From Alphaproteobacteria bacterium (lineage in GTDB: Bacteria; Pseudomonadota; Alphaproteobacteria; Rhodobacterales; Rhodobacteraceae): 64,000 nucleotides of DNA. Below the pieces are notes generated by a model, which saw only the letters and a list, made by a program, of their open reading frames with translations, searched no databases and was not told where the DNA came from. A program made the position numbers and the translations under genes. Shown here piece by piece: positions 17,853-17,904 of the stretch. Numbering within the stretch: the first letter of the stretch is position 1; each line of letters opens with the position of its first letter. The stretch spans positions 59,057 through 123,056 of the forward strand of contig JAUIAU010000006.1 of the NCBI GenBank assembly GCA_030425185.1, in the 5' to 3' direction.

Positions 17853-17904
17853 TTATCCACAAGATGAGTCAAACCTAATTCGGCGTCAATTTCTTTTTTG
17901 AATC
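17853..17904 (-). promoter_or_regulatory. ccrM promoter region: DnaA-box-like TTATCCACA plus two GANTC sites
   Basis: TTATCCACA at 17853-17861, GAGTC at 17866-17870, GAATC at 17900-17904; minus-strand TTGACG-17-CATCTT promoter-like hexamers. Confidence 0.55.

Follow-up and report, generated by a model that had tools for sequence, protein, structure and literature searches.

The region analysed here, a 64 kb stretch of DNA that we refer to as the window, carries a perfect DnaA box in the promoter of ccrM, the gene for a GANTC adenine methyltransferase, and a second one upstream of dapE. We give a probability of about 0.5 to the reading that best explains these sites as a whole, namely that the ccrM box is a genuine DnaA site placed on the -10/+1 region of the promoter, where DnaA could occlude RNA polymerase and let the replication initiator time methylase synthesis, and that the dapE copy is a local site. 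The position of the ccrM box within a conserved promoter, its recurrence at the same spot in related genomes, and the conservation of DnaA boxes at smc and dnaB are the observations on which this reading is built.

Results

Two DnaA boxes in the window

An exact-match scan of the window found two copies of TTATCCACA, one upstream of ccrM and one upstream of dapE, in the same orientation with respect to their genes, and both fit the DnaA-box definition (TTWTNCACA, or TTATCCACA) exactly. The ccrM box lies at 17853..17861 on the minus strand (TGTGGATAA in the orientation of ccrM, TTATCCACA on the plus strand) and the dapE box at 46328..46336 on the plus strand (TGTGGATAA, with TTATCCACA on the minus strand). 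They stand 41 nt and 39 nt, respectively, from the ATG codons at 17811 and 46376, as the preliminary description had reported. Its interval for the dapE context (46320-46338) was also correct, while that for ccrM (17853-17870) was slightly displaced; read along the minus strand, CATCTTGTGGATAACC (16 nt) occupies 17866 to 17851, and the shifted interval therefore takes in the adjoining GACTC site. The gene identities hold as well. The product of dapE (P0002; 46376..47518, plus strand, 380 aa), a succinyl-diaminopimelate desuccinylase, passes the cut-off of the dapE_proteo equivalog (TIGR01246, E 1.5e-109), and that of ccrM (P0001; 16702..17811, minus strand, 369 aa) matches NCBIfam CcrM with E 1.7e-190, although its 632 bits fall below the cut-off of 830 of the Caulobacter equivalog model.

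The suggestion that such a pair was unlikely to be random agrees with a mean chance expectation of 0.03 copies per window, and none of 100 dinucleotide shuffles yielded two. Over the whole host genome (3.66 Mb in 206 contigs) TTATCCACA occurs 15 times, against 8 times for a reversed-pattern control, so that the 9-mer is uncommon, as had been supposed, yet not unique. Seven of the 15 copies extend into TGTGGATAACC. A third copy, about 100 nt upstream of smc, is identical to the ccrM context at 16 of 16 positions, and the dapE version of the 16-mer is 3 nt longer. Among the other copies in the host genome (the L013/L005/L015 set), one directly precedes a LexA-like ORF and itself follows a GAAC-N7-GAAC SOS-like site, one coincides with the opening codons of a ScpA-like ORF, and one stands some 350 nt upstream from an MraZ-like ORF, these ORF names having been judged by eye.

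The ccrM promoter

Orthologues of ccrM were found in nearly all genomes of the family, the relatives of the window's gene being Rhodobacteraceae. The upstream gene rnhB is on the same strand and its stop codon, read from the rnhB C-terminus, is at 17911..17913 (minus strand), which confines the ccrM promoter to the 99-nt gap 17812-17910. In 30 genomes from different genera and about 80 named genomes the conserved promoter consists of TGATTCA, TTGAC(G/C), usually GAATC, and TTTGA(C/A)TCATC(T/C)T. The window has, all on the minus strand, GATTC of the conserved TGATTCA at 17900..17904, upstream of the -35; TTGACG at 17884..17889, the inferred -35, of which TTGAC is kept in nearly all ccrM promoters; GACTC, a CcrM methylation site occupying the third conserved position, at 17866..17870, 4 nt from the DnaA box; and CATCTT at 17861..17866, 17 nt past TTGACG, a putative -10 by its conservation as GA[CA]TCATC[TC]T in the majority of ccrM promoters. 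The middle GAATC is missing from the window copy, and the two GANTC sites at 17866-17870 and 17900-17904 lie within or near the -35/-10 region; of the ccrM upstream regions from named genomes, 76 of 77 contain between two and four such sites.

The core TTGAC-N-GANTCATCYT is deeply conserved at ccrM. By comparison with 29 other genera, the DnaA box of the window begins at the last base of CATCTT, directly after this core, and overlaps its -10/+1 region. The -10 is weak and was not called in a sigma-70 consensus scan, so the start site is a predicted one; if CATCTT is the -10, the box would cover the start point.

Recurrence of the box at ccrM and dapE

Within 220-250 nt of ccrM, neither an exact nor a one-mismatch box was present in the 29 other genera examined first. 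Exact copies recur at the same promoter spot in no fewer than seven other genomes and in either orientation: in the orientation of the window in L335 (same genus), L204 and L207, and reversed in L170, L171, L185, L215 and L045. L170, L171 and L204 are cultivable Shimia or Cognatishimia strains. Among closer relatives, the conspecific record (L141, L333) is identical at the site and the congener L334 has TGTGAATAA, which fits TTWTNCACA, so that a consensus box is common to the three closest ccrM sequences (the species itself and two congeners); the congeners L100 and L336 are without it. Counted over the 32-nt -10/+1 segment in 108 ccrM promoters, TTATCCACA comes first among its 1,680 anagrams with 8 occurrences, and the runners-up, with counts of 7 and 4, derive from the conserved GANTC core. 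Conservation is thus patchy but recurrent, 8 of 108 promoters having an exact box at the same position, in one orientation or the other, and most genera having none.

On a tree of CcrM proteins the presence of the box requires eight changes, one of which concerns an upstream box in L174, implying about seven origins at the start site. The letters common at this spot (e.g. CATCCTTGTCTCAACCAA) are already rich in TTG/CAA, and boxes may therefore arise there by drift more readily than by pure chance; the ancestral letters, TTGTC-CAACC, likewise ease such gains. Repeated gain at the same point in both orientations is nevertheless more readily explained by selection for a DnaA site than by drift, and on this comparison of promoters the DnaA input to ccrM appears to be lineage-specific, having been gained, lost or moved repeatedly.

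The dapE site behaves differently. Its box is kept at the same promoter position in the conspecific L342 alone; L345 has TGTGGATGA at the site, and L117, L343 and L344 show no comparable box at dapE. Among 29 other genera an exact copy was seen in only one, at another position, and in the anagram test TTATCCACA ranked 183 of 1,680 within one mismatch, which is no enrichment. The box is overlapped by an imperfect palindrome, CACAACCTACATCTTGTTGTG (46311..46331, plus strand), which scores a borderline 7.9 with the NrdR-type matrix described below. The dapE copy is probably a local and recent site of uncertain function.

DnaA boxes and palindromes at smc and dnaB

DnaA boxes at smc and dnaB are far better conserved than at ccrM. 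In smc promoters GCAATATCTTGTGGATAAC is present in 67 of 70, mostly 106-129 nt upstream of the start, and the DnaA box inside this element is exact in 44 of 70 and consensus-like in 57 of 70, at a fixed promoter position about 100-120 nt upstream; TTATCCACA ranks first of 1,680 anagrams there, and the site has no consistent reading frame. At dnaB a box within one mismatch is found in 25 of 31 promoters, again at the top of 1,680 anagrams, just upstream of a conserved ATACAATTTG (L352-L381), the copy in the host genome being degenerate (ATATCCAGA). Since the smc and dnaB boxes are widespread, DnaA boxes at chromosome genes are a feature of the family, and the ccrM site fits that pattern. An NrdR-like palindrome was also seen further upstream in many dnaB promoters (8 of 30 above threshold; L352-L381). 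A search for exact CAATATCTTGT gave, beyond ccrM/rnhB and smc, mostly coding matches; those upstream of genes were at dnaB (two) and at gyrA, parE and dnaQ (once or twice), and in single genomes (L254, L262, L275) the motif stands upstream of gyrA-like, parE-like and dnaQ-like ORFs.

On its 5' side the smc element consists of a palindrome resembling those of nrdJ promoters (CCAC[AT]A.AT.T[AT]GTGG). An NrdR-type matrix trained on nrdJ promoters alone (threshold 11.0) detected it in 27 of 30 smc promoters, and a second smc palindrome gave a single peak at +31 bp, centre to centre, a pairing identical to that of nrdJ promoters. Published NrdR boxes require 14-17 bp spacers (PMC12051234); paired 16-bp palindromes so spaced occur at smc and are lacking at ccrM. 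We regard this half of the smc element as a candidate NrdR site on the basis of its pattern; smc is not one of the NrdR targets that PMC5343134 names in its main text. The whole is a composite, an NrdR-type palindrome fused to a DnaA box with a second palindrome at +31 bp, seen in 67 of 70 genomes of the Rhodobacteraceae family (L051-L080, L382-L421). Upstream of nrdJ in the host genome (L049) there are two sets of candidate palindromes, a distal one (ACGCTATATGTTGTGG) and one closer to nrdJ (CCACTACATATAGAACC).

In the host genome the matrix gave -41.9 for the ccrM site, 14.3 for smc and 7.1-7.9 for dapE, so that the identical letters at ccrM and smc must derive from different elements. The preliminary description had also proposed a shared extended promoter class, which this comparison does not support in that form: CATCTT at ccrM belongs to the conserved core element GACTCATCTT, and the look-alike letters at smc and dapE are part of a palindrome, making up one half of the NrdR-type palindrome at smc. 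A single motif CATCTTG...TGTGGATAACC is rejected for ccrM, since CATCTT there is a piece of the core promoter.

Some 130 nt upstream of ccrM, 28 of 30 genomes have a conserved NrdR-type palindrome, which was considered as a regulatory box and rejected, being the last codons of rnhB (...KPVHNILYQE*). The window has its own weak version, CCGCAACATGTTGTTA (17926..17941, minus strand; score 8.4 against the threshold of 11.0), and in relatives the matching palindrome overlaps the final rnhB codons; its conservation is therefore largely protein-coding and is not counted as evidence. Codon usage there is skewed, TTG being used in 69 of 69 cases compared with 19% elsewhere in rnhB and AAT in 54 of 69 compared with 37%, and the end of the coding sequence may also carry a signal at the DNA level (window 17914-17945; L081-L220). 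A similar peak at -50 in ccrM is probably rnhB coding sequence too.

Discussion

A proposed role for DnaA at ccrM

The arrangement of the promoter leads us to infer that DnaA directly regulates, and probably represses, ccrM in this lineage. DnaA bound across the -10/+1 region would most likely occlude RNA polymerase, and methylase synthesis could in this way be held down around replication initiation, ccrM being released once DnaA-ATP is spent or titrated. There may also be an interplay with methylation of the neighbouring GACTC. The recurrence of the box at ccrM and its spread at smc and dnaB suggest that DnaA helps to time these genes. The earlier proposal of DnaA-linked control thus gains support for ccrM from promoter position, recurrence and the nearest relatives, and is weak for dapE, where conservation is at the species level.

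Chance or drift could instead account for both boxes, the ccrM copy having arisen neutrally from a start-site sequence that was already close to a box and the dapE copy being a coincidence. The absence of the box from both promoters in most genera, the want of enrichment at dapE (one exact copy in 29 genera; rank 183 of 1,680 within one mismatch), and a genome-wide count of merely 15 against 8 would all be expected on this account. It is set against a recurrence at one spot of ccrM in both orientations, where the box is the top anagram, some seven start-site origins, and a box common to the three nearest ccrM sequences, and we consider neutral origin of both sites unlikely.

It is also conceivable that the initiator is not the protein concerned. 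One other regulator, for example an NrdR-type factor binding CCACAANATNTTGTGG palindromes, might read the whole of CATCTTGTGGATAACC at ccrM, smc and dapE, given that ccrM and smc of this genome share an identical 16-mer and dapE has a form 3 nt longer, that a matrix built from nrdJ alone recovers the palindrome in 27 of 30 smc promoters, and that its only second copy at smc lies at +31 bp, as at nrdJ and as is typical of NrdR (PMC12051234). The matrix, however, does not recognise the ccrM site itself (-41.9, compared with 14.3 at smc and 7.1-7.9 at dapE), and relatives lacking the box still keep the CATCTT of that site as part of the conserved core promoter, which makes a common reader of the three sites improbable. 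The letters could, alternatively, be a mere shared promoter element, an extended -10 with no dedicated regulator, as the occurrence of CATC[TC]T after GANTC in most ccrM promoters might indicate. We judge this improbable, because at smc the copy is found 46-47 nt upstream of an inferred -35, TTGAC(TC), and not at a -10, and because TGTGGATAA is outside the ccrM core in most genera.

A broader possibility may be put forward tentatively, and we think it rather doubtful: that the Rhodobacteraceae have a class of chromosome-maintenance promoters combining DnaA boxes with NrdR-type palindromes, represented by smc and dnaB and, in some cases, by ccrM and dapE. If so, initiator activity and dNTP status would jointly set the transcription of condensin, helicase and methylase.

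Comparison with known systems

DnaA is known as a transcription regulator from dnaA and nrdAB of E. coli and from the Caulobacter DnaA regulon. The timing of CcrM is essential, constant GANTC methylation being disturbing to the alphaproteobacterial cell cycle, and in Caulobacter ccrM is timed by CtrA. Direct occupation of the ccrM start site by DnaA, if it takes place in some members of the Rhodobacteraceae, would mean that the initiator, and not CtrA, times the methylase there. The conserved boxes at smc and dnaB would in addition enlarge the DnaA regulon of the family and open DnaA-coupled transcription to testing in bacteria other than Caulobacter. The open-access literature searched yielded no description of smc or ccrM being controlled by DnaA or NrdR in Rhodobacterales.

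Like known DnaA-box promoters, those described here have the consensus TTATCCACA (TTWTNCACA) close to the promoters of replication and chromosome genes; they differ in that the target is ccrM, and in that the site lies on the inferred -10/+1 beside a GANTC and is patchy across the family. GcrA/CcrM-dependent promoters of Caulobacter (ftsZ, mipZ; PMC3708114) also have GANTC inside the core promoter, whereas here GANTC is on ccrM itself, with two sites in the window copy and up to three or four in relatives, and a DnaA box stands 4 nt from one of them. The 16-bp palindromes of smc and nrdJ, paired 31 bp apart, resemble NrdR boxes (PMC9110341, PMC12051234), and the ccrM site of the window is not such a palindrome. 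A precedent is that of Brilli et al. 2010 (PMC2877005), whose predictions gave ccrM DnaA sites mainly in those alphaproteobacteria in which this gene is without CtrA sites; the sites were reported for cluster C (Magnetospirillum, Rhodospirillum), and the Rhodobacterales grouped in cluster B showed no link to DnaA. A predicted link from DnaA to CcrM is common to both studies; the difference is that here the site is a positioned and recurrent one within the Rhodobacteraceae.
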